Positions 14,890-60,305 of a stretch of 64,000 nucleotides of DNA are shown in pieces (position 1 is the stretch's first letter; each line of letters opens with the position of its first letter). Source of the stretch: an uncultured Flavobacteriaceae bacterium (GTDB taxonomy: Bacteria > Bacteroidota > Bacteroidia > Flavobacteriales > Flavobacteriaceae). A program made the translations under genes and the position numbers. The notes below the pieces were generated by a model. The model made no database searches and was not told where the DNA came from. It saw only the letters and a list, made by a program, of their open reading frames with translations. Location: the NCBI GenBank assembly GCA_947502495.1, contig CANNAC010000002.1:434001-498000 (forward strand), in the 5' to 3' direction.

Positions 14890-14920
14890 AAAAAGCCTTT
14901 CTTTTATAGAAAGGCTTTTT
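14890..14920. terminator. Rho-independent terminator
   Basis: A 13-bp stem (14890-14902 with 14908-14920, AAGCCTTTCT against AGAAAGGCTT inside A and T runs) ends the large T9SS gene. The rest of 14921-15107 is AT-rich intergenic DNA with imperfect inverted repeats around 15055-15080 and no gene I can support. Confidence 0.85.
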
Positions 14921-15107
14921 TGCGTTAAGGATGGAAATGGCATCCTTTTTATGTTTGATATATGTCTTTTAATAGGTACCGTAGTTTCTATTTTGTTTTC
15001 TGTTTGTTATACTACCAAACATTACAACATAAAAAGATATAATGTACAGCCTGGTACTACGTAGCTTAAGCGAAGTAGTAAACGCCCAAATTAAAACAAC
15101 GCTAAAA

Positions 15108-47341: not shown

Positions 47342-47695
47342 CTAATTTAAAATTAGTGTGTAGTCGATATCGTCTACATTTATATACTTAGAATACACAT
47401 CTTCTTTATTGCAAAAAAGAGATTTTAATTCTTTTATTTCTTGTCTATTAAACATTAAAACAAGATTAGATTGAAAAGATGGAATTGGGATTTTTCGCTT
47501 TACTTTGGCGTCTTCATATTTGTTCTCCCAATACGCTTCTTCTATTGCTAATAGATACTTTTTAAACTGTTTATATTGCGCTTCTGAAAATTCGAAATAG
47601 ATATTATTAAATTCTAAATGGTATACATTACAGTTCGTGCAAATAGATAATTCGCCACTTGTAACTTTAGATATAGTTTTAATATTAGTACACAT
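47342..47695 (-). CDS. Conserved hypothetical protein (DUF6686-like)
   Basis: The 117-residue protein begins MCTNIKTISKVTSGELSICT and continues NCNVYHLEFNNIYFEFS; Cys2, Cys19 and Cys22 could bind a metal or be fortuitous. The C-terminal part has SFQSNLVLMFNRQEIKELKSL. I recall this as a DUF6686-type protein, without certainty. It sits 18 bp downstream of the PepSY-reductase gene and may be the last gene of the heme operon. Confidence 0.6.
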   Translation of the reverse strand: MCTNIKTISKVTSGELSICTNCNVYHLEFNNIYFEFSEAQYKQFKKYLLAIEEAYWENKYEDAKVKRKIPIPSFQSNLVLMFNRQEIKELKSLFCNKEDVYSKYINVDDIDYTLILN

Positions 47696-47713
47696 AGACT
47701 TCTCTTTTAGGGA

Positions 47714-49903
47714 TTAGTAACAATCTGTTTTTATCTGATTTTTTTCTATAAAGATGCTTAACGGTAGGTTTAATTTTTCGGTGGTAATAGTATTTAATAC
47801 GGCTAATACATCGTTTTGCATCGCCAAGGATCCGCAAATCATAATTACGCCTTTATTCTTTAATGTTTCGGCAACCAACAAAGCATCTCTTTGTAAAAGA
47901 TCTTGCACATAGGTTTTAGGCGCTTCTTTGGAAAATGCCAACTTTAATTTAGTGAATTTCCCAAGGTTATGATTTTCTTTAATGGCATCACGATACAGGT
48001 TAAACGAAGCGTTTTGCCTTAAACCATAATACAAATGGGTTTCTATATTTTTGGTGTTTTGGTCTAGCATTCCTAGAAAAGGAGCAATTCCTGTTCCGTT
48101 GGCAATTAAAAGGGCTCTGGAAGCTTTTTTAGGGAAATGAAAGGCTGTGTTTTTTAATATTCTCGCTTTAAAAACATCCCCTTTATTTAAGTTATTTAAG
48201 AATCCGGAGCCTAATCCGTTTTCATGAAGCTTTACACTTAATTGGATGTTTCCGTTGACTTTTCCAATAGAATATAAACGTTCTCTGTAATCGTTTTTAG
48301 GATAAATAGCCAACAAATCTCCGGAGTTGAATTTTGTAGTATTCGCCTTTAATGTGATTAGAAAAGTATTATCGGTATGGTCTTCTGGATTTGTTTGATC
48401 TACAACCGTAAGTGTGTTGTTTAACCTTGGTTTTTTTGCTAGTTTTTCTTTGGAAATATGAATAGGAAGCCTTCTGTTTTGGTTCCAAAGGGTTATCCAT
48501 TCTTCAAAAGATGCTACCGATTTATCATTAATGGTAAAAACGGGTAATTCTTGTTGCAACGGAAGCTGCATCGCTGCATCTATATCGTAAGCAAATTGGC
48601 AAAAATCAGGATATGCCAAAGACCCAAAACCAACTACGGAATAGTTTATTTCTTGTACTTGTTTGATCGTTTTTAATCGCTCTAAAAACACATTAGCATT
48701 GGTTGGCGCTTCGCCTTCGCCATACGTAGAAGTCAGAACTACAATATGCGCTGCTTTACTATAGGTATCATAATTATTAAGCTCTGCAATGTAAACCGTT
48801 TCGCCAGCCTTTATTAATTGTTGTTGCAATTGGTTGGCAAAAGGCAAGGTGTTTCCGTTTTCTGAACCTACTAAAATTACATACTTGCTATTGTCTTTTT
48901 TGTACTTGTTTTTTAGTTTAGACTTTCTGCGTTTTAGCGTCATTGCAAAACCAGAATAGATAAAAAACAAAATATTTGCGGTTGCAATTGCTAAAATGAC
49001 GGACCATAAAATACTGCCTTTTCCGGTGTGTAAATTCAGACTTAAATTAGAAAATACGGTAACTAAAGGTGTTTTTATTTCGCTTAAAGTTTCGCCTGTA
49101 AATTGGTTTACAACAACTTCTTTATCTTTAAGGGAAAGTGTGAAATAGTCTTCTACATCTTCCGAAAAAGGAAATTCTATGGTTTTTACTTCGGAAAGTT
49201 TTATGTTTTTAAAAATAGGAAAATCTTGAATATCTTGTTTTGGTGTTTCCGAAAGGGATTCAAAATCTATGGTATGGCTAACGCTACTCTTAGGAAGTAA
49301 ATCAAACTTTTCAGCCGACAAATAAACACCTGTAATGGTGATGATAATTATTGGAATTAACGATAGTCTTCCTAAAACGACATGCCAATACTGACTAAAG
49401 TTTTCGTTTACTACTTTCGTGAAAAACTTCTTTAAACCGCCTTGTCTTTTTAGTATTAAAACCGTTCCGGAAACGGCAATTAAGAATAACAGAAAGGAAC
49501 ATAATCCGACAAAAAAGCGTCCGATTCCTTTTAAAAACAAGGATCTATGAAAATTAGTAACCCATTTAAAAAATTTGGACACTTCTATTTTATCTCCAAT
49601 GAATTCGGCTGTTTTCGGATTGATATAGCCATTTAAACTTTCACCATCGGTAGTAATCACCGAGGCTAAAACAAATTGGTTTGCATCTACTTGTACGTCT
49701 ATAACTTCAGGATATTTCGATTTTAAATTGCTAATGGTTTCGGCAACTGTTATGTTTTCAAAATCGGAAATCTTATATGGTTCTAGCTGTTCTGAAATTG
49801 GTTGGAATGCCAAAATAATTCCAGTTATGGATGCTAAAAGAATAAAAACAAAAGAAGATACAGCTAGTGTTAAGTGGCTGTATCTCCAGATGGAAATGGT
49901 CAT
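47714..49903 (-). CDS. PepSY membrane protein fused to a flavodoxin/NADPH reductase
   Basis: The 729-residue protein is a fusion. The N-terminal part (about 1-330) is a PepSY-type membrane domain with membrane segments at about 12-34, 130-152, 172-196 and 305-330, and histidines at its ends (RYSH, NFHRSLFLKG, QYWHVVLG, LNLHTGKG) that could ligate heme. The flavodoxin domain follows (about 341-480, VILVGSENGNTLPFANQLQQ, TSTYGEGEAPTNA). A FAD/NADPH-binding reductase half ends the protein (about 510-729, RLYSIGKVN, LLIANGTGIAPFLGML, GVIMICGSLAMQNDV). It probably moves electrons from NADPH across the inner membrane, for example to reduce ferric iron or heme. Confidence 0.85.
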   Translation of the reverse strand: MTISIWRYSHLTLAVSSFVFILLASITGIILAFQPISEQLEPYKISDFENITVAETISNLKSKYPEVIDVQVDANQFVLASVITTDGESLNGYINPKTAEFIGDKIEVSKFFKWVTNFHRSLFLKGIGRFFVGLCSFLLFLIAVSGTVLILKRQGGLKKFFTKVVNENFSQYWHVVLGRLSLIPIIIITITGVYLSAEKFDLLPKSSVSHTIDFESLSETPKQDIQDFPIFKNIKLSEVKTIEFPFSEDVEDYFTLSLKDKEVVVNQFTGETLSEIKTPLVTVFSNLSLNLHTGKGSILWSVILAIATANILFFIYSGFAMTLKRRKSKLKNKYKKDNSKYVILVGSENGNTLPFANQLQQQLIKAGETVYIAELNNYDTYSKAAHIVVLTSTYGEGEAPTNANVFLERLKTIKQVQEINYSVVGFGSLAYPDFCQFAYDIDAAMQLPLQQELPVFTINDKSVASFEEWITLWNQNRRLPIHISKEKLAKKPRLNNTLTVVDQTNPEDHTDNTFLITLKANTTKFNSGDLLAIYPKNDYRERLYSIGKVNGNIQLSVKLHENGLGSGFLNNLNKGDVFKARILKNTAFHFPKKASRALLIANGTGIAPFLGMLDQNTKNIETHLYYGLRQNASFNLYRDAIKENHNLGKFTKLKLAFSKEAPKTYVQDLLQRDALLVAETLKNKGVIMICGSLAMQNDVLAVLNTITTEKLNLPLSIFIEKNQIKTDCY

Positions 49904-49957
49904 GCTTTTTTAAATTTAGGAGACTTTTGTGTTGCTCTAGAAGTGACAATTCGATTT

Positions 49958-50440
49958 TTAGTTAGGCATTAAACGCACATAACGAATAAATCCTGTACCT
50001 TCTTTTTTGCTTTTCACACTTTCTGATGTTAATTCAAACTCGACATCTTTGGTGTAATATTCTTGATCTTCTACGGCAGTTTCAAAACGAATACTGTAAC
50101 CCGCATCAATTTTAGAATCTTCAATTTCTAAAACGTTAATTGTTCTTGCACCTCCAGCAATAGTTGCTCCAGTAATAGCGTCGATACTAGAGCGTTTCTT
50201 TCCGTAGAATTTCCACCATTCTGAAATATCGTGATACCACTCATCATCATCTCCTTGCACGTATAAGGTTTTTTCGTATTCGCCTTCCGGGTTAATTAGT
50301 GAAATAACTACGTAGGCATTTTCACCTGTATAGTTAATCATTTGAATCATGCATTTATACGATGTAGATTCTTTTATAGTGGTAAAGGATAGCATTGTTA
50401 TTGCTAAAAAACAAATCGTTAATATGGATTTAAGTTTCAT
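49958..50440 (-). CDS. DUF2271-family exported protein
   Basis: The 160-residue protein has a signal peptide (about 1-22). The mature part has YKCMIQMINYTGENAYVVISL and SSIDAITGATIAGG, followed by a beta-rich RFETAVEDQEYYTKDVEFEL. The DAITGAT motif resembles FMN-attachment-type sequences but is here in a DUF2271-like protein, which are periplasmic. It lies in the heme operon between the ankyrin and PepSY-reductase genes. The function is unknown; a partner of the reductase is plausible. Confidence 0.7.
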   Translation of the reverse strand: MKLKSILTICFLAITMLSFTTIKESTSYKCMIQMINYTGENAYVVISLINPEGEYEKTLYVQGDDDEWYHDISEWWKFYGKKRSSIDAITGATIAGGARTINVLEIEDSKIDAGYSIRFETAVEDQEYYTKDVEFELTSESVKSKKEGTGFIRYVRLMPN

Positions 50441-50458
50441 TTGTAATTATATTTTATG

Positions 50459-50485
50459 AGATCCTTAAACAAGTTCAGGATGACA
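50459..50485 (-). repeat. Interspersed repeat, TGTCA..CTG..CTTGT family, copy 2
   Basis: On the minus strand this 27-bp element begins TGTCATCCTGAACTTGTTTA and matches the 28394 element at 16 of 24 positions. It lies inside the operon, between the ankyrin and DUF2271 genes. Confidence 0.6.
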
Positions 50486-50491
50486 ATTTGA

Positions 50492-51967
50492 TTATTTTAA
50501 AAAATCTAAATCGATTTTCTGTGCTTTTAAAATTTCGTTTTCGGATGCTAAATCAAAAGGAGTTTCATCAAAATCTGTCGTTGCATCTTTTTTAGCTCCA
50601 ATAGATAATAAATACTTTAAGATTTCTGTGTCTTTCGCTTGTAAAGCTGCAAGGTGTAAAACCGTATTCCCTTCGTTATTCTTCGCATTTACATCTATTT
50701 TAAATGGCTCTAAAAGCTTTAAAAAATTGATGTTATTTTTTGCTATAGCAAAATGATATATCGTATTTCCGTTTTCTTGCGTTTTGGTGATATCTAATCC
50801 GTTTTTAGTTAAAACATCCATTTTTTCCTCAAAAACATCTTCTTTTTTAGTCGAAAACGATTCTATTAAATAAGGCGTTAAGTTGTTTTTATTCGCATCT
50901 AAAACGGCAACATCGGCTTTATTTTCAATTAAAAAATAAACTACTTCTGGTGAATTATTTGCGACAGCCAAAGCTAATGCCGATTCCCCTTTTTTATTTA
51001 CCTGGTTTACATCTTTAACCTGCTTAAATAATAAAGTAACCATTTCTAAATTATTTCTACTTGCTGCGTTTAAAAATGGGGTATTTCCGTTTTCGTCTAT
51101 TGCATTTACATTTCCTTTTTCAAGAAAATAATTAACCAATTCCACCTCTTTACTTCTTGCTGCTAAAATATGTAAAGGTGTTTCGTTTTTAATGGAAGCT
51201 TTTTCCGGGTTTAAACCAACACTTTCCAAGTATTTGTAAAAATCGAAAGTATTTGTATTTCCTCTAGTTCCAGAAGCTGCAAATACAAAAGCGTTATCGT
51301 TTCCTTTTACCCCTTTTTCAAGTAATTGATTTAATAACTCTACATTTCCTGTTTTTGCTACATAATTAAATATGCCATTTCCATTTTCATCTACGCTATG
51401 AATATCTACACCTTTTGATGTGAAATAATTTATTAACGTAAAATCTGTATCGTAAGGCGCTGCTAATAATAAAGCATTAGCTCCTTTTGGTGTTACATCT
51501 ATTTTTACATTTGCACCATTTGCAATACAAAGATCGTATACCTTCGTGTCTTTTTGCCCAGAACCTGCAGCAAAATTTAAGATGGTATTTCCTTTATCAT
51601 CTGTAATATCTGTTTTAGCTCCTTTGCTAAGTAGATATTCCATGACTTCGATATTGCCTTTAAATGCTGCCCAAAAAATGTATGTTCTACCATCATGCGT
51701 AAGCTTATTGGCATCGTTTCCTTCTTTAGACTGAATGTGTTTAATAGTTGCTATTGGTGCATCTTGTAAAATAGCATATACTACAGCATCAAAATTATTG
51801 CCATTAGCTTCTGCTATATTATTTCCTTCTTGAATTTTAGCTTCAACCGTTGCAATGTTTGGATTCGATTTCCAAAAATCACGGTTTAAAAATATATTTT
51901 CTTGCGCAAAACCTAATGTGCTTAAAAATAGAGTGACAACGGTTATTGTGTTTTTTAAATACTTCAT
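50492..51967 (-). CDS. Exported ankyrin-repeat protein
   Basis: The 491-residue protein has a signal peptide (about 1-22, TLGFAQE). About ten ankyrin repeats follow, from about 60 onward (DGRTYIFWAAFKGNIEVMEYLLSKGA, NEGNTVLHLAALQAKDTEILKYLLSIGA, in pieces). Ankyrin stacks bind protein partners, and here they face the periplasm. It lies 1 bp downstream of the DUF6607-like gene, so the two are probably translated from one mRNA. It may scaffold the reductase or receptor. Confidence 0.9.
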   Translation of the reverse strand: MKYLKNTITVVTLFLSTLGFAQENIFLNRDFWKSNPNIATVEAKIQEGNNIAEANGNNFDAVVYAILQDAPIATIKHIQSKEGNDANKLTHDGRTYIFWAAFKGNIEVMEYLLSKGAKTDITDDKGNTILNFAAGSGQKDTKVYDLCIANGANVKIDVTPKGANALLLAAPYDTDFTLINYFTSKGVDIHSVDENGNGIFNYVAKTGNVELLNQLLEKGVKGNDNAFVFAASGTRGNTNTFDFYKYLESVGLNPEKASIKNETPLHILAARSKEVELVNYFLEKGNVNAIDENGNTPFLNAASRNNLEMVTLLFKQVKDVNQVNKKGESALALAVANNSPEVVYFLIENKADVAVLDANKNNLTPYLIESFSTKKEDVFEEKMDVLTKNGLDITKTQENGNTIYHFAIAKNNINFLKLLEPFKIDVNAKNNEGNTVLHLAALQAKDTEILKYLLSIGAKKDATTDFDETPFDLASENEILKAQKIDLDFLK

Positions 51968-51968
51968 A

Positions 51969-52874
51969 TTACTTTTTTACAAATGATTCAATTAATGGAT
52001 TAATTTCTTCTGCTGTTTGGTATTTTTCTTTATCAAATAAATACTTAAACAAGACTTTACTATCTACTTTTTCTTCTAATACTAAATCTTTATTTCTAGC
52101 AAATACTTCGTCCCATTTAGTGCGCACTAAAGCCCATTTAGCTTGTTCTTTAGCCCAAAACTCTTGTGCTGCAACACATTTACTATCTTCTACTCTTTTG
52201 TACACATTATGCCCTTTTTCTTCCGCGATAAGCGCATAAACACCATCTTCACTTAGAATTTTTTCATTGTCTTGATCGTGAATCCAACCTGTAGTTGTAA
52301 TTTCATGTCTATTTGTTCTTCCTGTAACATTATAGTCGCTTCGTTGTGTGTATTCACGTCTTGGTAAAGGCGCGCTTGTTGTGTTTTCCCAATAGTGTTT
52401 TCCATCTACATGAATCCAGGTTGCAGAACCTTCGTAACGCGGACTATCATCTACCTGAAATACTTTTTGAGACCATTGCCCTTTTACTTGTCTTTTATCT
52501 AATTTGGTATATTTCCATTCATTATTTCTAAAATACTCGTACAAATCGGTGTTTTCAAATTCCCAATCCTGCCTCCAATGCTTCACAATATATGGTTGTT
52601 CTTTAGAACCAACAATTAATAAATGTTGCATTGCTATTTTGTCTTTATCGTCTTCTACCAATTGCACCCACTCTAATCCTTTATCGTGTTTTGTTTTAGA
52701 AGGAACGTATGTAGAATCTTCCGAATATTGAAAAGTTTCGGCAAAATTAAAGCTTACTTCATAACAACCACACATCGCTTTAATGGCTTTTTGATCTTGT
52801 TCCTTCTTTTTTTGCGCGCTTACATTAAAGGTAAATGCGAATGATAAAATGAATAATAAGGGTAAATGTTTCAT
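51969..52874 (-). CDS. DUF6607-like exported protein
   Basis: The 301-residue protein has a signal peptide (about 1-20, TFNVSAQ) and a C-terminal helical tail. The mature part has KAMCGCYEVSFNFAETFQYSED, HWRQDWEFENTDLYEYFRNNEWKY and a WxxxWxxV-like run (KEQAKWALVRTKWDEVF). It fits my recollection of DUF6607 proteins of Bacteroidota. It is the first gene of the operon divergent from the TonB receptor. The function is unknown; the location suggests heme or iron handling. Confidence 0.7.
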   Translation of the reverse strand: MKHLPLLFILSFAFTFNVSAQKKKEQDQKAIKAMCGCYEVSFNFAETFQYSEDSTYVPSKTKHDKGLEWVQLVEDDKDKIAMQHLLIVGSKEQPYIVKHWRQDWEFENTDLYEYFRNNEWKYTKLDKRQVKGQWSQKVFQVDDSPRYEGSATWIHVDGKHYWENTTSAPLPRREYTQRSDYNVTGRTNRHEITTTGWIHDQDNEKILSEDGVYALIAEEKGHNVYKRVEDSKCVAAQEFWAKEQAKWALVRTKWDEVFARNKDLVLEEKVDSKVLFKYLFDKEKYQTAEEINPLIESFVKK

Positions 52875-52923
52875 TACTAAAGTTTTATTTAATGGGTTTA
52901 AAAAAAATTCAAATTTATTTATT

Positions 52924-52948
52924 CTTATTTAGATTGAATTAAAATAAG
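52924..52948. promoter_or_regulatory. Inverted repeat in the divergent heme-locus promoter
   Basis: CTTATTT (52924-52930) and AAATAAG (52942-52948) are exact complements with an 11-bp spacer. The site overlaps the -33 and spacer region of the TonB promoter and could be the operator of an iron-responsive regulator. Confidence 0.55.
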
Positions 52949-52960
52949 GTTCTATATTTG
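52934..52960 (+). promoter_or_regulatory. Candidate promoter of the TonB-HmuY genes
   Basis: TTG at 52934-52936 lies 16 bp before TATATTTG (52953-52960), an exact TAnnTTTG box, and 18 bp later comes the ATG at 52979. Confidence 0.6.
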
Positions 52961-52978
52961 CAGCAAATATAAAATAGA

Positions 52979-55123
52979 ATGAGTCTAAATAAAAATAATA
53001 TTACACTTTATTTTTTACTTTTTTTGAGTTACGCGATTAGTGCTCAAGAAAAAGAAAGGGACACTACTAAAATTGAAGAACTAGACGAAGTAGTTATAGT
53101 AGGAGAAAGCAATGTGATGTCTGTTAGTAAAAAGTTATTTACGGTTGGTACTATTAAAAGAAAAGACATAGAAAATGTTGCTGGAAATAACTTGGCAGAT
53201 GTTTTACAAAACAGTTTAAACATTACCGTCAACCCAGACGCTTCTAATGGCCGTTCTACCATAAGCTTATTTGGTTTAGATGGACAGTATGTAAAAATAT
53301 TAATAGACGGCATACCTATTATTAGTGATAACGGTCTAGGTAACAACATAGATATTTCCCAATTAAATATAGATGATGTAGAACGTATAGAGATTGTGGA
53401 AGGATCTATGGGTGTTTTATATGGGGATAACGCCGTTGCAGGTGTAATTAATATTATCACAAAAAGAGGCTTAAAAGATAATGGTTGGGAACTTCAGTTA
53501 TCCATTCAAGAAGAAAGTGTGGGTAATGAATTTGAATTCTTTGATGAGGGAAGACATATTCAAAATGTAAGAGCTACCAATCAGGTAAATAAAAAATTAG
53601 CATATTCTATTGGTGCTTCTAGAAATGATTTTGCTGGTTTTTACAATGGATACAAAGGAAAAGATTATGTCAATATTGAAAATGGCATAGTTGTAAACGA
53701 TAGCTTGCGAGGCACCGAGTGGAACCCCAAAGAACAAATAACCGTATCTGGAGATGTGGATTTAAACTTAGGGAAACACAACTTATTTTACAAGCTACAA
53801 TACTTTAATGAAAACCTAGACATTTACAATAGAACCGTAAATGGGAGATATGAAAATGGCGTTCTTACCCCTACAGCTGTTGATGAAAACTACAAAACAA
53901 ATCGATGGGTAAATAATTTAAATGTTTCTGGTCCACTATATGGAGCTACAAACTATAATTTTTCCTTTTCATATCAAACTCAAAAACGAAACTACAAAGA
54001 ATATGTTTACAATATTCTAGAGGAGAAAACGCAATCTGTAGAGACAGATACTGTAAGCCAATCTAGTGAAGTATGGTACTCTAAAGCATTTGTAAATAAC
54101 ATAGTACCCAAGTCTGATTTTTTTAATCTTCAGTTAGGTTATGAATTCACTAACCAAAAGGGATTTGATGCTATTGCTACGGGAGATTATTCTAGTGACG
54201 TAGTAGAAAACACCATAACTAATTACGAATTATTTGGAATTACGGAATTTCAACCGTTAAAAAAATTATCTATAAATCCGGGGATACGATTTACAAATAG
54301 CTCTCAATTTAATAATCACCTAATTTGGTCCTTGTCTTCCACTTATGATTTTACAGAGAAAATAAAACTAAAAGCTGTTGTAGGTTCTGCATATAGAGCA
54401 CCAAACTTTGAAGAGCTCTTTTACTACTTTGTAGATTCCAACCACAATGTAAGAGGGAATCCAGATTTACAACCTGAAGATGGAATCTCTGTTTTTGTAA
54501 ACCTTAAAAACAATTATAAGATTGCCAAAGAAGGCTTTTTAAATCAAAAATTAACATTCTTTTATATGGACTTAAAAGACGCTATAGCTAGTATTACTTC
54601 GGAAGATGAAGATGGCAGCATTCTATTTACACAAGACAATATAGATTACAGTAAACGATTAGGTTTCAATTTAGAAAACAGTTTTATCTATAAAAACTGG
54701 AATATAGGTTTGGGAGCCACTTATTTAGGTATTACAAGCGCTATTAATGAATCTTTAGATAATCCAACAAATTATATGTGGAGTTTAAACGTACAAGCCA
54801 CATTAGCTTATAATATAGATAAATGGGATACCACTATTAGCAGCCAATTAAAGCATACTGGTAAAACTCAAGGTGTATTTACCGATACGGATGGCGAATT
54901 ATTTATTGGAGAAACCGATGCTTTTACTTGGTTAAACGCATCCATAAGAACAGATATTACCCCTAGAATAAATGCAACATTAGGAGCAAGAAACCTACTA
55001 GATGTTGTAAATATAAACACTAAATCTTCTGCTGGAGCGCATACTGCTTCGACATCAAGTTCCAGATTAATCGGTAATGGCCGATCCTATTTTTTAAAAC
55101 TATCCTATAATTTAAATTTTTAA
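52979..55123 (+). CDS. TonB-dependent heme receptor, HmuR-like
   Basis: The 714-residue protein has a signal peptide (about 1-22) and a plug (about 45-165, TISLFGLDGQYVKILIDGIPI, IEIVEGSMGVLYGDNAVAGV). The barrel ends SYFLKLSYNLNF. The heme-receptor signature is present: YRAP at 472-475, His489, and NPDL at 494-497. It has no N-terminal carboxypeptidase-like domain. It is followed 11 bp later by the HmuY-like lipoprotein gene. Heme or hemoprotein uptake is the likely role. Confidence 0.9.
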   Translation: MSLNKNNITLYFLLFLSYAISAQEKERDTTKIEELDEVVIVGESNVMSVSKKLFTVGTIKRKDIENVAGNNLADVLQNSLNITVNPDASNGRSTISLFGLDGQYVKILIDGIPIISDNGLGNNIDISQLNIDDVERIEIVEGSMGVLYGDNAVAGVINIITKRGLKDNGWELQLSIQEESVGNEFEFFDEGRHIQNVRATNQVNKKLAYSIGASRNDFAGFYNGYKGKDYVNIENGIVVNDSLRGTEWNPKEQITVSGDVDLNLGKHNLFYKLQYFNENLDIYNRTVNGRYENGVLTPTAVDENYKTNRWVNNLNVSGPLYGATNYNFSFSYQTQKRNYKEYVYNILEEKTQSVETDTVSQSSEVWYSKAFVNNIVPKSDFFNLQLGYEFTNQKGFDAIATGDYSSDVVENTITNYELFGITEFQPLKKLSINPGIRFTNSSQFNNHLIWSLSSTYDFTEKIKLKAVVGSAYRAPNFEELFYYFVDSNHNVRGNPDLQPEDGISVFVNLKNNYKIAKEGFLNQKLTFFYMDLKDAIASITSEDEDGSILFTQDNIDYSKRLGFNLENSFIYKNWNIGLGATYLGITSAINESLDNPTNYMWSLNVQATLAYNIDKWDTTISSQLKHTGKTQGVFTDTDGELFIGETDAFTWLNASIRTDITPRINATLGARNLLDVVNINTKSSAGAHTASTSSSRLIGNGRSYFLKLSYNLNF

Positions 55124-55134
55124 CACTAATTATT

Positions 55135-56319
55135 ATGACAAACAAATTTTTAACACTGATATTAATCCTTACCGCTGTAGTTGTTACAAGCTGTAGTAGT
55201 GACGATAATGGTGGAAACACAGTAACAACGACACCTCCATCTTCTGGTGGAATTATTGACCCAGAAGTAGGCGGATTTAATCAACCAAATCGTGTTTTTG
55301 TAGATTTAAGTACCGGAAACCAAGTCGCTGTAAATCGCGATTCTTGGGAAATTGCTGTTTATAACGGTTCGGAAAACAGAGTCTATCTTAACAGTGCATT
55401 ATTAGTATCTGCTGCAGAATTAGAAGGTATTACGGATATTACAACAGTAACGGAAACTACAACTTTAACATCTCCGTTAACCTTAAATGCATTAGATCCA
55501 ACTTTTACACCTACCACTGTAACAGTAAATACTGTTGCTGAATTAATGCAAGGTTTACCAGTAAACTATTACCAATATGGTGATTTAAATGCTGGCATTT
55601 CTTTTACGGATACTAAAGAAGGGGAATTAACAGGTACTGCATTTGAAGAAATATCAACAACAGATAGCGAGAACAATGTGTACATTGTCAACTTAGGAAA
55701 CGAAATACCTACAACCAATAATGGAACAATAAACACGACTGGAGATGCTAGAGGTTTTATGAAGGTTAGAGTATTAACAGACGGAAATAGCTACACGATT
55801 CAATATGCTGCCTTAAGCAATACAACTGATTTTTCGGAATTAACGGTAAGTAAAGATAGCAACTACAACCTTACTACTGTAAGCTTAACCGATGAGCAAA
55901 TTGCAACTTTAGAGCCAATATCTTCTAATTGGGATATTGATTTTGGTGGTGTATTTTCTTATTATGGTCAGCAAGGTACTTTAGCTGCAGGTTTAACGTA
56001 TTCAGATTATACATTACACAATACACTAGGCGGTGTTGGCTTGTATTCTATTACTGTTGAAGATGACACAACCCCTAATTATACAGACTTTACATACGAT
56101 GCTATTGCGGAAGCAAGTTTTGTTTACAATGATCGTACTATTATAGGAAGTGGTTGGAGAAGCGTAGATTTTATGACTGGAGAAACATCTGTAAGAGAAG
56201 ACAGGTACTACATTATCAAGGATACGGATGATAACTACTATAAGCTAAGATTTACAGCAGTGGAAAGCCAAACAGGAGAAAGAGGTTATCCACAATTTCA
56301 ATATGAATTATTACAGTAA
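55135..56319 (+). CDS. HmuY-like heme-binding lipoprotein
   Basis: The 394-residue protein has a lipoprotein signal with lipobox VTSC (about Cys20). The mature part has the HmuY-like FVDLSTGNQVAVNRDSWEIAVYNG and a late SNWDIDFGGVFSYYG (in pieces). Porphyromonas HmuY is shorter (about 216 residues) and takes heme from host proteins for HmuR. The extra length here is unexplained. It is cotranscribed with the receptor and followed by a terminator. Confidence 0.85.
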   Translation: MTNKFLTLILILTAVVVTSCSSDDNGGNTVTTTPPSSGGIIDPEVGGFNQPNRVFVDLSTGNQVAVNRDSWEIAVYNGSENRVYLNSALLVSAAELEGITDITTVTETTTLTSPLTLNALDPTFTPTTVTVNTVAELMQGLPVNYYQYGDLNAGISFTDTKEGELTGTAFEEISTTDSENNVYIVNLGNEIPTTNNGTINTTGDARGFMKVRVLTDGNSYTIQYAALSNTTDFSELTVSKDSNYNLTTVSLTDEQIATLEPISSNWDIDFGGVFSYYGQQGTLAAGLTYSDYTLHNTLGGVGLYSITVEDDTTPNYTDFTYDAIAEASFVYNDRTIIGSGWRSVDFMTGETSVREDRYYIIKDTDDNYYKLRFTAVESQTGERGYPQFQYELLQ

Positions 56320-56360: not shown

Positions 56361-56388
56361 AAAAGCCACTCTTAAGGGAGTGGCTTTT
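56361..56388. terminator. Terminator after the HmuY-like gene
   Basis: The stem GCCACTC / GAGTGGC, extended by A and T runs, has a 6-nt loop. It lies between the HmuY-like gene and the convergent carbonic anhydrase gene. Confidence 0.85.
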
Positions 56389-56414: not shown

Positions 56415-57041
56415 TTAATCTAAATGATAGATTTCTCTAATATCATTCAGGATTCTTTCAAAATCTATTTTTAGATCAATCAGTTTTCCGGTATGAATAT
56501 CAAATACCCAACCATGTACTATTAAACCTCTACCACGAACTGCTTTTTGAATAGCAGCCGTTTTAATAAGGTTAACACATTGTTCTTGTACATTTAATTC
56601 GATTAAACGTTCGTATTTTTTTTCTTCCTCTTCAATCGCATTCAGCTCTTCGTTATGAATACGGTACACATCGCGAATGTTTCGTAACCACGGATTTAAC
56701 AAACCTAGATCTGCAGACTGCATAGCAGCTTTTACACCACCACAACCATAATGACCACAAACAACAACATGATTTACTTTTAAATGCTCTACAGCATACT
56801 CTACAACCGACATCGCGTTTAAATCGGTACCAATAACCATATTCGCAATGTTACGGTGTACAAAAACATCTCCAGGACCTAATCCCATTAATTCTTCTGC
56901 AGTAACTCTACTATCGGAACAACCAATAAATAACAACTCCGGATTTTGCCCTTCGCCTAACTTATCAAAATACGCATCGTCTTCATTTAATTTAGACTTT
57001 ATCCACGTTTTATTATTTTCAAATACGATATCTAGATTCAT
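56415..57041 (-). CDS. can: Beta-carbonic anhydrase (1)
   Basis: The 208-residue cytoplasmic enzyme has zinc ligands Cys41 and Asp43 in CSDSRV, His97 and Cys100 in HYGCGG. The flanking FVHRNIANMV and GWVFDIHTGKL agree with the E. coli Can type. It interconverts CO2 and bicarbonate. It is 9 bp downstream of the first SulP gene, so the pair probably supplies and interconverts bicarbonate. Confidence 0.95.
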   Translation of the reverse strand: MNLDIVFENNKTWIKSKLNEDDAYFDKLGEGQNPELLFIGCSDSRVTAEELMGLGPGDVFVHRNIANMVIGTDLNAMSVVEYAVEHLKVNHVVVCGHYGCGGVKAAMQSADLGLLNPWLRNIRDVYRIHNEELNAIEEEEKKYERLIELNVQEQCVNLIKTAAIQKAVRGRGLIVHGWVFDIHTGKLIDLKIDFERILNDIREIYHLD

Positions 57042-57050
57042 TTTTTAAAT

Positions 57051-58916
57051 TTAGTTTTCGTCTTTTACATTATCCTTTATCCATTTCACACAACTATCAA
57101 ACGTCTTAAAAATATGTTCATTAGGAATAAAATCAGGAATAATATCAATACGTTCCATCATATAACGAGGTTGCTGTAATAACCCAACAAACAGCACTTC
57201 TACGCCATTTTTTGTAAGTTCTTGTAACATATCTTCCATGGCATATAAACCAGACTGATCCATATATTGCATTCTTCCTAAACGTAAAACAACCGTTTTT
57301 GCTGTATTAGGAATTTGTTCTGTTAGCGCTTGAAAATCACTAGTGGATCCAAAGAACAAAGGCCCTTTAATATGCTTAATAAATACTTCTTCTTTAAGGT
57401 TTTCTGGAAAAGTACCTTCATCTGCCCAAGCTTTCTCTTTCTTTAAAGACTTCACATCGGAGCGTTCTGCTGTTAAATCTCCTATTTTTTTCATAAACAT
57501 TAGAGAAGCGATTACTAAACCAATACCAACAGCGTAGATTAAATCCCAAAAAGTAGAAAGTAATAATACAATAATCATTATTAAAACTTCTGAACTTAAT
57601 TTTAAAGGTCCAAATTTTATATCTCTTGGTAAACTAGGTATTGCCTTAAGTCCTTTATAATCCATAACACCAATACCAACTGTTATTAAAATACCTGCTA
57701 AAACAGCAGCAGGAATTTTAGATGCTACAGGAGCTAATACTAACATAATAAGCAATAACATGATACCTGCAATCATACCAGATAATTTTGTTTTACCACC
57801 AGCATTGATATTTACAACAGTTCTAATAGTAGCACCTGCACCTGGAATACCTCCAAAAAGTGCTGCAATACTATTACCAATACCTTGTCCGATAAGTTCT
57901 TTATTCGGCTTATGTTTGGTTTTAGTCATATTATCTGCAACAACACTAGTTAACAAAGAATCAATTGCTCCTAAAAGAGATAAAGTAAGTGCTGTAAAAA
58001 TATAAGGCGTTATATTCCCCAAACTGAAATTAGTAAACATTTCTAGTCTTGGAATTGGAATACCTCCAGGTATTTCAGAAATAGGCCTATAACCTAAATT
58101 AAAACCATAAGCGATTCCAGACATTACAACTAGCGCAACTAATGTGCTTGGTACTGCTGTGGTTATTCGTTTAAAACCATAAATAATAAATATGGTTCCT
58201 AAAGCCAGAATAAGCTCTAGCCAATTTATATTTTGTAATGCTCTTGGTAATACTTTTATTGCTCCCACCGTACCAGAAGCTTCTTTTGCTGCTAATGTTT
58301 GGGACTCTTTTAAAATTTGTTCTGGAGTAATTTGATGCGCACGATCTATAGTTTCTTTAAAATTTTCAAGTACTAAAATACCTTCTCCTGCTTCCTCTTT
58401 TAAAATATTTTCAAGAATAACTTCTTCTGCTTGTGGTTTAAATTGTTCTACAAATGCGGTATCTTCTTTTGGGTAATACCCAATAGAAGGCAAAATTTGT
58501 GTTAGTAAGATAATTACCCCAATAGCGGTCATAAACCCAGAAACTACTGGATAAGGGATATATCTTATGTATTTACCTAATCCTAAAAAACCAAGGCCTA
58601 CTTGAATTAATCCTGCTAATAAGAATACGGTTAAAATTGCTGGTAGTGCTTTTTCTACACTGCCATCATTTGCAGCTACAATTCCTGCAATAATCACCAT
58701 ACTTACTGCGGTCATTGGTGCTGTTGGTCCAGAAATCTGTGTTGCTGTTCCTCCAAAAAGTGCCGCAAAAAAACTAATAAAAATGGCTCCATAAAGTCCA
58801 GCTTCTGGTCCTAAACCTGAAGACACCCCAAAAGCTAAAGCTAAAGGCAAGGCTACAATACCTGCGGTAATACCACCAAAAGCATCTCCTTTTATATTTG
58901 AAAATAAATTTTTCAT
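57051..58916 (-). CDS. SulP-family anion transporter with STAS domain (1)
   Basis: The 621-residue transporter has 10-14 membrane segments. It begins GGITAGIVALPLALAFGVSSGLGPEAGLYG, read in pieces, and contains the SulP signature ISGPTAPMTAV. A STAS domain sits at about 495-610 (MQYMDQSGLYAMEDMLQEL). A hydrophilic insertion of about 70 residues (about 150-222, VEQFKPQAEEVILENILKEE) lies between early helices. The cognate substrate may be bicarbonate, sulfate or another anion; the adjacent carbonic anhydrase favours bicarbonate. Confidence 0.9.
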   Translation of the reverse strand: MKNLFSNIKGDAFGGITAGIVALPLALAFGVSSGLGPEAGLYGAIFISFFAALFGGTATQISGPTAPMTAVSMVIIAGIVAANDGSVEKALPAILTVFLLAGLIQVGLGFLGLGKYIRYIPYPVVSGFMTAIGVIILLTQILPSIGYYPKEDTAFVEQFKPQAEEVILENILKEEAGEGILVLENFKETIDRAHQITPEQILKESQTLAAKEASGTVGAIKVLPRALQNINWLELILALGTIFIIYGFKRITTAVPSTLVALVVMSGIAYGFNLGYRPISEIPGGIPIPRLEMFTNFSLGNITPYIFTALTLSLLGAIDSLLTSVVADNMTKTKHKPNKELIGQGIGNSIAALFGGIPGAGATIRTVVNINAGGKTKLSGMIAGIMLLLIMLVLAPVASKIPAAVLAGILITVGIGVMDYKGLKAIPSLPRDIKFGPLKLSSEVLIMIIVLLLSTFWDLIYAVGIGLVIASLMFMKKIGDLTAERSDVKSLKKEKAWADEGTFPENLKEEVFIKHIKGPLFFGSTSDFQALTEQIPNTAKTVVLRLGRMQYMDQSGLYAMEDMLQELTKNGVEVLFVGLLQQPRYMMERIDIIPDFIPNEHIFKTFDSCVKWIKDNVKDEN

Positions 58917-58986
58917 ATTTTAATAGTTTTAATTTAGTTTGTTTTACAAAATACCTTTTTTCTACTTACTTTAAAAGGAAATAGGA

Positions 58987-59655
58987 TTAGAAATTTACAA
59001 ATGCAATTATATTAATTTGATCTCTTCCTGAATTTTCAAAAAACTGATTCATATACCCTAATTCTAATTTTAAGTTTTCTGAAAACCGATACCCTAATCC
59101 TCCATATACTCTGTTTCTATCGAATACATCCGATTCCGTATTTAAAAATACTTCATTGTATGCCGAAAGATATAAAGGGCTTTTGCCGTCTTCTTTATTT
59201 TGAAGCGGATAATTAAAGCCTAAAAAGTATCGTAATCGCATTTTAAAATCATCTTCTACAAAACGTTGCTCAAAACGATAACGATGATTCATTTTAAGTT
59301 TACCAATATTTTGTTTGGACGTAAATTGCTGAAAAACGCGATGCTCATTTACCGTTGCCTTTTCATTGGTATCTCCAATATAATTTTCAGATAAAATATA
59401 ACCATATCCTAAAAGGATATTATTCTTACTTTCATTAAAAGTATAGCCTAAACCGGTTCTTAGTAATAGTTGTTCTAAATCGCCAACAGCATCATAATTT
59501 CTGTATTGCACTTCGTGATGAATATTCCAGGTATTGTTTAATTTTTTGTTTCCAATATATATTAACCAATTGCCTAAATTACTCTCTTGACTTGTAGCAA
59601 TAAAAGGCAACACCAATATACATATTAGTGTTGCCATAAAAGTTTTCTTTTTCAT
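58987..59655 (-). CDS. DUF2490-family outer-membrane protein
   Basis: The 222-residue protein has a signal peptide (about 1-22). A barrel pattern follows: LGNWLIYIGNKKLNNTWNIHHEVQYRNYD, read in pieces, RYRFEQRFVEDDFKMRLRY and a final LELGYMNQFF plus INIIAFVNF. Family function is unknown. In this locus it could be a pore or sensor connected with anion transport. It lies between the first SulP gene and the second carbonic anhydrase gene. Confidence 0.8.
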   Translation of the reverse strand: MKKKTFMATLICILVLPFIATSQESNLGNWLIYIGNKKLNNTWNIHHEVQYRNYDAVGDLEQLLLRTGLGYTFNESKNNILLGYGYILSENYIGDTNEKATVNEHRVFQQFTSKQNIGKLKMNHRYRFEQRFVEDDFKMRLRYFLGFNYPLQNKEDGKSPLYLSAYNEVFLNTESDVFDRNRVYGGLGYRFSENLKLELGYMNQFFENSGRDQINIIAFVNF

Positions 59656-59678
59656 AAAAAGCCTTTATTTTGGTTTTA

Positions 59679-60305
59679 TTAATAAAAGTTTACCGCACCT
59701 GTATTTATATCATACATTGCGCCAACAATTTTAATTTCACCATTTTTTTCCATTTCAGAAAGTATTGGACTTTCTGCATGAATTCTATCAATAGTTAGCT
59801 CTACATTTTTCTTAGACACTTCATCTACAAAATCTAAGTTCTTTGAGTTTCTTAAACTTTCGTCTTTAGGCTCTGTAACCGCTTTAACTGCTGGGTCAAT
59901 TTTTTCAATTAATTTAGTAAGATTCCCCATTTTTGCATGGTCACAAGCCCCTTTTATTGCGCCACAACTCGTGTGACCTAAAACTACAATTAGTTTTGTT
60001 CCTGCTAGTTTACATGCAAATTCCATGCTTCCTAAAATATCTTCGTTTACAAAGTTACCTGCAATACGCACGCTAAAAATATCTCCTAAACCTTGATCAA
60101 AAACCAATTCTGATGATACACGTGAATCGATACAACTTAAAATAGTTGCAAATGGAAATTGCCCTTCACTAGTATCATTTACTTGTTCTAAAAGGTTACG
60201 ATTCGCTTTTAAATTATCTTGAAACCTTTGATTTCCTTCTATTAAATATTGTAATGACTTATCTGGTGTCATTGTTGCTTGTGTCTCTTTTGTATGTGCT
60301 TTCAT
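59679..60305 (-). CDS. Beta-carbonic anhydrase (2)
   Basis: The 208-residue enzyme has zinc ligands Cys58 and Asp60 in CIDSRV, and His111 and Cys114 in GHTSCGA. It is from a different branch of the beta class than the enzyme at 56415: an extra N-terminal YLIEGNQRFQDN (about 20-31) and IAGNFVNEDILGSMEFA. Members of this branch often neighbour SulP genes. It is 13 bp from the UspA-like gene. Confidence 0.93.
   Translation of the reverse strand: MKAHTKETQATMTPDKSLQYLIEGNQRFQDNLKANRNLLEQVNDTSEGQFPFATILSCIDSRVSSELVFDQGLGDIFSVRIAGNFVNEDILGSMEFACKLAGTKLIVVLGHTSCGAIKGACDHAKMGNLTKLIEKIDPAVKAVTEPKDESLRNSKNLDFVDEVSKKNVELTIDRIHAESPILSEMEKNGEIKIVGAMYDINTGAVNFY

Follow-up and report, generated by a model that had tools for sequence, protein, structure and literature searches.

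How aerobic members of the Bacteroidota without a recognised haem oxygenase extract the iron of haem is, as far as could be found, an open question, and it is raised by a divergent gene cluster of an uncultured marine Flavobacteriaceae bacterium (assembly GCA_947502495.1, contig CANNAC010000002.1). The cluster lies in a stretch of 64,000 nucleotides that was analysed as a whole and is called the window here. Its seven genes (47342-56319) form the two arms of one 104-bp divergent promoter: to the right a TonB-dependent receptor and an HmuY-family lipoprotein; to the left a DUF6607 protein, an ankyrin-repeat protein, a DUF2271 protein, a fusion of PepSY_TM, flavodoxin and reductase domains, and a DUF6686 protein (Table 1). 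A preliminary description of this DNA had proposed a haem or iron acquisition system with a built-in membrane reductase from six of these genes, all of which were confirmed in position and domain content by open reading frames and Pfam matches; it had, however, overlooked the seventh, the DUF6686 gene, which starts 18 bp past the reductase stop on the same strand. The evidence given below makes it rather likely that the locus is a Fur-controlled system for haem-iron acquisition consisting of two separable modules on the divergent promoter, where the ankyrin, DUF2271 and reductase proteins, hereafter the triad, would act as a general reductase of Fe(III) complexes.

The DUF6607 protein is a homologue of RhuH, the haemophore of Riemerella anatipestifer, and is predicted from this homology to bind haem. 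Compared with the PDB sequences by phmmer, it matches the RhuH entry 8xjc at E 2.4e-90, and a profile of 56 of the 81 available homologues (the window and 80 related loci) finds 8xjc as the sole convincing entry (E 2.9e-121), the next one having an E-value of 0.29. Its predicted structure, with a predicted local distance difference test (pLDDT) score of 86, is aligned to 8xjc by Foldseek with template modelling (TM) scores of 0.80/0.86, E 5.6e-29 and 49% identity. The haem ligand His96 of RhuH corresponds to H99, and the propionate contacts R143, Y144, R170, R183 and Q198 correspond to R146, Y147, R173, R186 and Q201, all of them invariant in 56/56 homologues. A candidate reading of DUF6607 as a bilin-lyase-like or unknown enzyme was dropped after the 8xjc match. 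The structural matches of the model after 8xjc include nitrobindins, which are haem-binding β-barrels (E 2.3e-3, TM about 0.55 by target length); the fold has been termed unique in the RhuH paper (PMC11967795). As described there, RhuH binds haem at 3.44e-11 M and is present in the medium as well as in outer-membrane vesicles; when iron is limiting, cells need it to grow normally on haemoglobin or haemin, its loss leaving virulence unchanged, and rhuH shares with rhuR-rhuA a common promoter with a Fur box (PMC11967795). Since the R. anatipestifer protein binds haem and is found in vesicles and medium, the DUF6607 protein is unlikely to be simply a periplasmic part of the reductase complex, where the preliminary description had placed it, although haem acquisition as such is supported by the receptor, the HmuY protein and the membership of DUF6607 in the RhuH family.

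Regarding the right arm, the NCBIfam matches of the receptor are all below the cut-off, the best being TIGR01779 (TonB-B12, E 5.8e-31), with TIGR01785 (TonB-hemin) at E 9.7e-27. His489, correctly placed between YRAP and NPDL in the preliminary description, is invariant in the 43 receptors (window included) that are more than 38% identical to that of the window, and a tyrosine occupies the position in 17 of the 64 aligned. The lipoprotein reaches 69.5 bits against PF14064 (cut-off 27), and its lipobox Cys20 is kept in 46/46 sequences; NCBIfam gave no match for HmuY, DUF6607, DUF2271 or DUF6686. The best Foldseek matches of the HmuY model are HmuY-family structures, with a TM of at most 0.42, and for this reason no ligand was placed in the model. 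The receptor is divergent from RhuH in 74 of the 77 loci with at least 4.5 kb upstream (exceptions L045, L046 and L052), and HmuY is detected by profile in 52 of these 77, a further 20 having a cysteine-bearing protein of 180-240 amino acids adjoining the receptor; the two of them that were tested (L012 and L015) are both HmuY. As judged from sequence identities among the loci compared for it (L003-L009, L025 and L026), the receptor-HmuY pair (window 52979-56319) looks like a cassette exchanged at a constant promoter, independently of the rest of the locus. The loci L005, L006, L007 and L009 are 75-87% identical to the window in the triad and 43-47% and 41-43% in receptor and HmuY, respectively; in L025 the cassette is 75-79% identical and the triad 49-66%.

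The intergenic gap contains two inverted repeats, in agreement with the one that the preliminary description had noticed over the shared promoter. The palindrome TATATTTGC-A-GCAAATATA at 52953-52971 contains TAnnTTTG, which we take to be the flavobacterial -7 element, and the second repeat, TTATTTAGATTGAATTAAAATAA at 52925-52947, lies 31 bp from the receptor start and 50 bp from the RhuH start. As palindromes alone both are weak evidence, with P values by mononucleotide shuffling of 0.008, 0.052 and 0.025 for the best 19-mer, 21-mer and 23-mer, and the repeat at 52925-52947 is not the best of these palindromic mers; what supports it is its conservation as a putative Fur-box-like operator. Palindromes like TATATTTGCAGCAAATATA recur in several related promoters and possibly reflect a promoter usable in both directions. 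The operator core matches 14/19 bases of the published R. anatipestifer Fur core, ATTTAGAATTATTCTAAAT (PMC5609570). With at most four mismatches the operator occurs in 74 of 78 related loci (the 80 without L057, too short, and L065, mostly N), compared to 3/78 for the reversed pattern and none for shuffles, a count that is partly circular, as the pattern was derived from the same loci; with at most six mismatches the reversed pattern already reaches 38/78, so that only the strict threshold discriminates. Independent support therefore comes from the scan of the bacterium's own genome, which gave nine sites at no more than three mismatches and 0 for the reversed control. By genes named by reading, these sites lie in a ferritin-porin gap (three), upstream of nqrA, upstream of feoB, upstream of a TonB receptor, in a hemA-AraC gap (the AraC gene precedes hemH), at the 3' end of a DUF1501-like gene and at this locus, 52925-52947 being the only site of the 64-kb window with four mismatches or fewer. 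Iron control is thus supported, as a prediction from sequence likeness.

The left arm has the features of a transmembrane chain carrying electrons from NADPH to the periplasm, as had been proposed for the fusion, and this is supported by the PepSY histidines, the flavodoxin and reductase domains and the TGAT motif of the DUF2271 protein. The fusion histidines H10, H119, H174, H210 and H292 are conserved in 25/25 sequences of one alignment and in 20/20 of another. An N-terminal profile of its membrane part matches FoxB (7abw, E 2.3e-4, residues 13-157), and the H119 motif aligns with FHHNL of FoxB; this is the only region that aligns in the FoxB-type diheme comparison, H10, H119, H174 and H292 being invariant in 20/20. 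FoxB has two haems with two histidines for each (PMC13038864, PMC11334425), and in the fusion the pairs would be H10/H174 and H119/H292. The cytoplasmic part matches NADPH-cytochrome P450 reductases, and from this likeness a site for flavin adenine dinucleotide (FAD) is assumed. The adjoining DUF2271 protein carries the motif [S/T]GA[S/T], as TGAT in 22 of the 25 aligned module sequences; the motif has been defined, and is flavinylated by ApbE in a relative (PMC8238504). The genome's only ApbE is encoded outside the operon on another contig (C13, loci L086 and L082), about 11 kb further on from the gene read as nqrA, whose operator-like site has two mismatches, and flavinylation itself may therefore be under iron control. 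In L015 the reductase consists of two adjacent frames (13027 onward, the first frame of 515 amino acids). When iron is limiting, expression of DUF2271 and PepSY genes close to iron-responsive receptors goes up in Alteromonas (PMC7190382), and in B. thetaiotaomicron loci of PepSY and receptor genes are iron-induced (PMC10434189).

A survey of co-occurrence had been proposed with the preliminary description, and it was made in 149 genomes of the family (148 genera), with DUF6607 in 54, DUF2271 over the cut-off in 50, the reductase-fusion class in 49 and HmuY in 62. The fusion class was picked by hand from the match list without its weakest matches, and its members G014 and G084 have short frames. 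RhuH and the fusion occur together above chance: 37 genomes have both, 17 only RhuH, 12 only the fusion and 83 neither (Fisher p 4.6e-12, uncorrected for phylogeny). Within 300 nt of a DUF2271 gene lie 47 of the 49 fusions, and within 10 kb of DUF6607 on the same strand 31/49, with a spacing of 2.0-2.3 kb in 29 of these 31. HmuY is found within 10 kb of DUF6607 in at least 50/54 genomes, on the opposite strand in at least 45 of them, both counts being lower bounds taken from 64 entries, mostly one per genome. The related loci are the best 80 of 96 relatives found, so that the set leans to Flavobacteriaceae close to the window. Among the 72 loci whose downstream flank reaches 5.5 kb or more, 23 have ankyrin, DUF2271 and reductase genes together behind RhuH and 0 have only one or two of them, the ankyrin gene being present in all 23 loci with the other two; the remaining eight loci are cut by contig ends, and L002, L024 and L029 among them show part or all of the triad. 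In many Flagellimonas/Allomuricauda relatives among L041-L081, a same-strand protein of about 180-220 amino acids stands behind RhuH at the place of the triad. DUF6686 lies downstream of RhuH on the same strand in 7/80 loci, directly after it in F. psychrophilum.

The triad also occurs away from RhuH. Eighteen fusion genes are not near RhuH, and 16 of them were examined, G014 and G103 having been left out as close to contig ends. Eight of the 16 come after a TonB receptor of the CarbopepD type (as tested for one of them) and a lipoprotein of about 430-460 amino acids (L093, L094, L095, L098, L099, L102, L103 and L108), one stands beside a receptor and HmuY without RhuH (L107), five triads are alone (L096, L097, L101, L104 and L106) and two are partial (L100, the fusion alone; L105, without ankyrin). 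The ankyrin gene is present in 14/16. Operator-like sites with at most five mismatches, lying in the 250 bp before the operon's first gene or at the predicted start of that gene, were found at 13/16 (none at L100, L101 and L105), with seven sites anywhere for the reversed pattern; the module therefore follows iron control and not the haem genes. Of the eight lipoproteins of about 460 amino acids, the three searched against Pfam gave no match, and a comparison of one with PDB sequences yielded nothing convincing, so that their likeness to XusB is by position only. A reductase half dedicated to haem, as first proposed, is made unlikely by this distribution and by the many RhuH loci that lack the triad. 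On haem and electrons the proposal is right in outline, but the substrate it names is too narrow.

Beyond the periplasm, the genome inventory favours entry of iron as Fe(II). The bacterium's own genome has no PF01126 haem oxygenase, degraders of the HugZ, HutZ and IsdG types not having been searched for, and no CobN/HmuS chelatase; a P. gingivalis-type Hmu operon was rejected, with no CobN-like gene in the genome and none among the window genes beside the locus. FecCD was matched three times: strongly by a permease closest to BtuC (below the NCBIfam cut-off) whose locus carries a cobalamin riboswitch, and weakly by two proteins that resemble zinc/metal permeases. No haem ATP-binding cassette (ABC) importer was thus found by the families searched, which did not cover Dpp-type haem importers. 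A gene read as feoB is present by an operator-like site. Across the family, PF01126 haem oxygenase occurs in 14/149 genomes and is absent from 45 of the 54 with RhuH.

Put together, iron starvation would cause Fur to leave the operator, and RhuH and HmuY, judging from their homology to published systems, would bind haem and hand it over to the receptor. Electrons would move from NADPH to FAD, to flavin mononucleotide (FMN) in the flavodoxin domain and to the two membrane haems (H10/H174 and H119/H292), then to covalent FMN on a periplasmic DUF2271 protein and to ferric iron, yielding Fe(II) for FeoB. The triad would then serve, in iron starvation, to carry electrons to Fe(III) in the periplasm, and could be attached to haem cassettes as well as to those of other receptors. 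Ferric haem does not lose its iron from the porphyrin by reduction alone. As substrates of the triad, iron already released from haem and other ferric ligands taken up concurrently are more likely than haem itself, whose reduction is possible. Protein families, gene order, conservation and the likeness of the operator to a Fur box are seen in the sequences, and secretion, flavinylation, binding of Fur, the path of the electrons and their substrate are inferred. A bolder version, which we consider doubtful, is that haem iron is extracted without any step in the cytoplasm: haem would be brought to the periplasm by RhuH, HmuY and the receptor, the NADPH-flavin-haem-flavin chain would drive reductive release or a reductive, oxygen-dependent opening of haem, and only Fe(II) would cross, by FeoB, replacing a haem ABC importer and a cytoplasmic haem oxygenase, with the same ankyrin-DUF2271-PepSY chain swapped between haem and siderophore-type receptors.

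Several observations weigh against the two-module, Fur-controlled reading. Besides the partial circularity of the operator count and the five solitary triads, L101 keeps the triad in an unchanged chromosomal position but lacks the haem genes, and no operator was found there. In 23/54 of the RhuH genomes no same-strand fusion lies 10 kb or less from DUF6607, and the F. psychrophilum haem locus is without a triad in the 20 kb examined. The triad is also not strictly all-or-none, as G001 has DUF2271 beside RhuH but carries the fusion on a different contig, and the parts of the triad in G063 and G017 are separated by extra sequence and spread over 4.5-6.1 kb. Three of the 25 DUF2271 copies have TGET in place of TGAT. 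With axial His/His or Met/Met ligands sought in 46 aligned HmuY sequences, no histidine or methionine besides the start methionine is kept at 90%, and a F. columnare hmuY deletion grew like the wild type (PMC9618737). For the supposed B12 importer, the single NCBIfam match of the binding protein, weak and below the cut-off, is to the haem-binding IsdE. Finally, haem oxygenase is rare both in RhuH genomes with a linked triad (4/31) and in those without one (5/23, p 0.47), so that the triad does not simply take its place; the absence of haem oxygenase as an explanation specific to the triad was rejected.

Other explanations account for parts of these data. The tight order behind RhuH, with the same 2.0-2.3 kb spacing in nearly all linked cases, and the complete presence or absence of the triad in the 72 loci with enough flank are what would be expected if the triad acted only on haem from this receptor and were needed for growth on haem, as in the preliminary description; such a dedicated haem reductase is nonetheless unlikely, because triads stand with a different receptor and lipoprotein or alone, and many RhuH loci do without them. 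Periplasmic ankyrin proteins such as Pseudomonas AnkB are reportedly linked to peroxide defence, which fits a triad serving as an antioxidant or envelope redox-repair module that is co-induced where haem or iron enters and is not an iron reductase. A Bizionia PepSY gene that is lower in an iron-regulator mutant, not necessarily the counterpart of the fusion gene, has been called a putative antioxidant enzyme (PMC9478572). This alternative appears quite improbable, as several characterised PepSY_TM proteins have been described as ferrisiderophore reductases (PMC13142918, PMC13001220, PMC13038864) and as the operator-like sites and receptor neighbours point to iron. Each half also exists without the other, as if two iron-starvation operons merely shared one Fur box with no joint action; the association in presence across the 149 genomes and the recurrence of the same order in 23/72 loci render this very unlikely. 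A general Fe(III)-complex reductase set beside a haem-uptake module is the reading retained here.

The features of the locus are collected in Table 1. Terminator-like sites in the region number five against a shuffle mean of 5.2, and the sigma-70 and terminator scans gave site numbers not above those of shuffles. Next to the locus, a gene for a SulP-type transporter stands between two carbonic-anhydrase-like genes (56415-60305, all identified by reading), and their homologues adjoin the locus in many relatives. Elsewhere in the window, a Flavo-1 RNA (RF01705) lies at 14917-15060, with 45.4 bits against a gathering score of 42.

Table 1. Features of the divergent haem-iron locus, in window positions; functions are predicted.
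Feature	Position	Strand	Basis
DUF6686 protein, 117 amino acids, probable last gene of the operon	47342..47695	-	Pfam PF20391, E 4.4e-46
PepSY_TM - flavodoxin - NAD(P)H reductase fusion, 729 amino acids, putative inner-membrane electron conduit	47714..49903	-	Pfam PF03929, PF00258 (Flavodoxin_1), PF00175 (NAD_binding_1)
DUF2271 protein, signal peptide by eye, predicted ApbE-flavinylated electron carrier	49958..50440	-	PF10029, E 4.1e-41
TGAT motif, DUF2271 residues 90-93, predicted covalent FMN site	50162..50173	-	Motif alignment
Ankyrin-repeat protein, 491 amino acids, signal peptide by eye, usual partner of DUF2271 and reductase	50492..51967	-	Pfam Ank_2, E 2.5e-53
RhuH-family haemophore (DUF6607), 301 amino acids, His99 equivalent to RhuH His96	51969..52874	-	PF20311, E 7e-95
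Putative Fur-box-like operator, shared promoter	52925..52947	.	2 mismatches to TTATTTAGATTNAATCTAAATAA
Palindrome TATATTTGCAGCAAATATA over presumed flavobacterial -7 element	52953..52971	.	Inverted-repeat scan
TonB-dependent receptor, haem receptor by context, HmuR/RhuR/HfpR-like in position	52979..55123	+	PF00593, PF07715
Long-form HmuY lipoprotein, 394 amino acids	55135..56319	+	PF14064, E 4.6e-19
Terminator-like hairpin past the HmuY gene	56361..56388	-	11-pair stem and T run

The preliminary description knew of no described mechanism for this gene set. For its parts this does not hold, since RhuH/RhuR/RhuA, HfpR/HfpY, PepSY reductases and flavinylated DUF2271 proteins have been published, and 231 clusters of PepSY with a TonB receptor have been counted, with iron reduction proposed for PepSY clusters (PMC8238504). 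RhuH opposite a TonB receptor and a haem binder over a Fur box is already published, and it is the ankyrin-DUF2271-reductase half that was not found described. In the open-access literature, no paper on RhuH with this reductase, none on the ankyrin-DUF2271-PepSY triad and none from 2024 on with both RhuH and PepSY was found among the matches listed; no paper there contains 'DUF6607', and none joins PepSY, ankyrin, iron and flavobacteria.

The closest system is that of R. anatipestifer, where one Fur-box promoter likewise separates RhuH from the divergent genes of a TonB haem receptor and of an outer-membrane protein that binds haem; unlike here, the available text of that paper mentions neither PepSY nor DUF2271 and names no ankyrin gene (PMC11967795). 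In Flavobacterium psychrophilum the hfpR promoter is iron-repressed, and HfpR and HfpY, a TonB receptor and an HmuY-family haem binder, support growth on haem, with iron-responsive electron-transfer genes mentioned in a 19-kb region (PMC9331221). Its locus (L031) resembles the present one in having a RhuH homologue divergent from hfpR and a DUF6686 gene, but a DoxX gene separates receptor and HfpY, and the HmuY protein is short. The PepSY-like/DUF2271/ApbE clusters share a PepSY_TM protein, in some cases with an NAD-binding domain, next to a DUF2271 protein with [S/T]GA[S/T]; they often carry ApbE and DUF4198 (PMC8238504), neither of which is among the seven genes here, while ankyrin, the usual third member here, is named 0 times in the text of PMC8238504. 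XusABC of Bacteroides and FoxB, HiuB and FsrB also combine a receptor with an inner-membrane reductase of the PepSY type that is presumed to supply the uptake of ferrous iron, XusABC having a surface lipoprotein as well, but they handle siderophores and not haem, and the available text on them names no flavodoxin-reductase fusion or DUF2271 (PMC13142918, PMC13001220, PMC13038864). PepSY reductases also stand by receptors for xenosiderophores in Bacteroides and Caulobacter (PMC13142918, PMC13001220). The present locus couples a flavin-based electron chain to a haemophore of newly solved structure, making the question of haem-iron extraction testable by single gene removals, and it defines an ankyrin-DUF2271-PepSY module that is used with several receptor types in Flavobacteriaceae.

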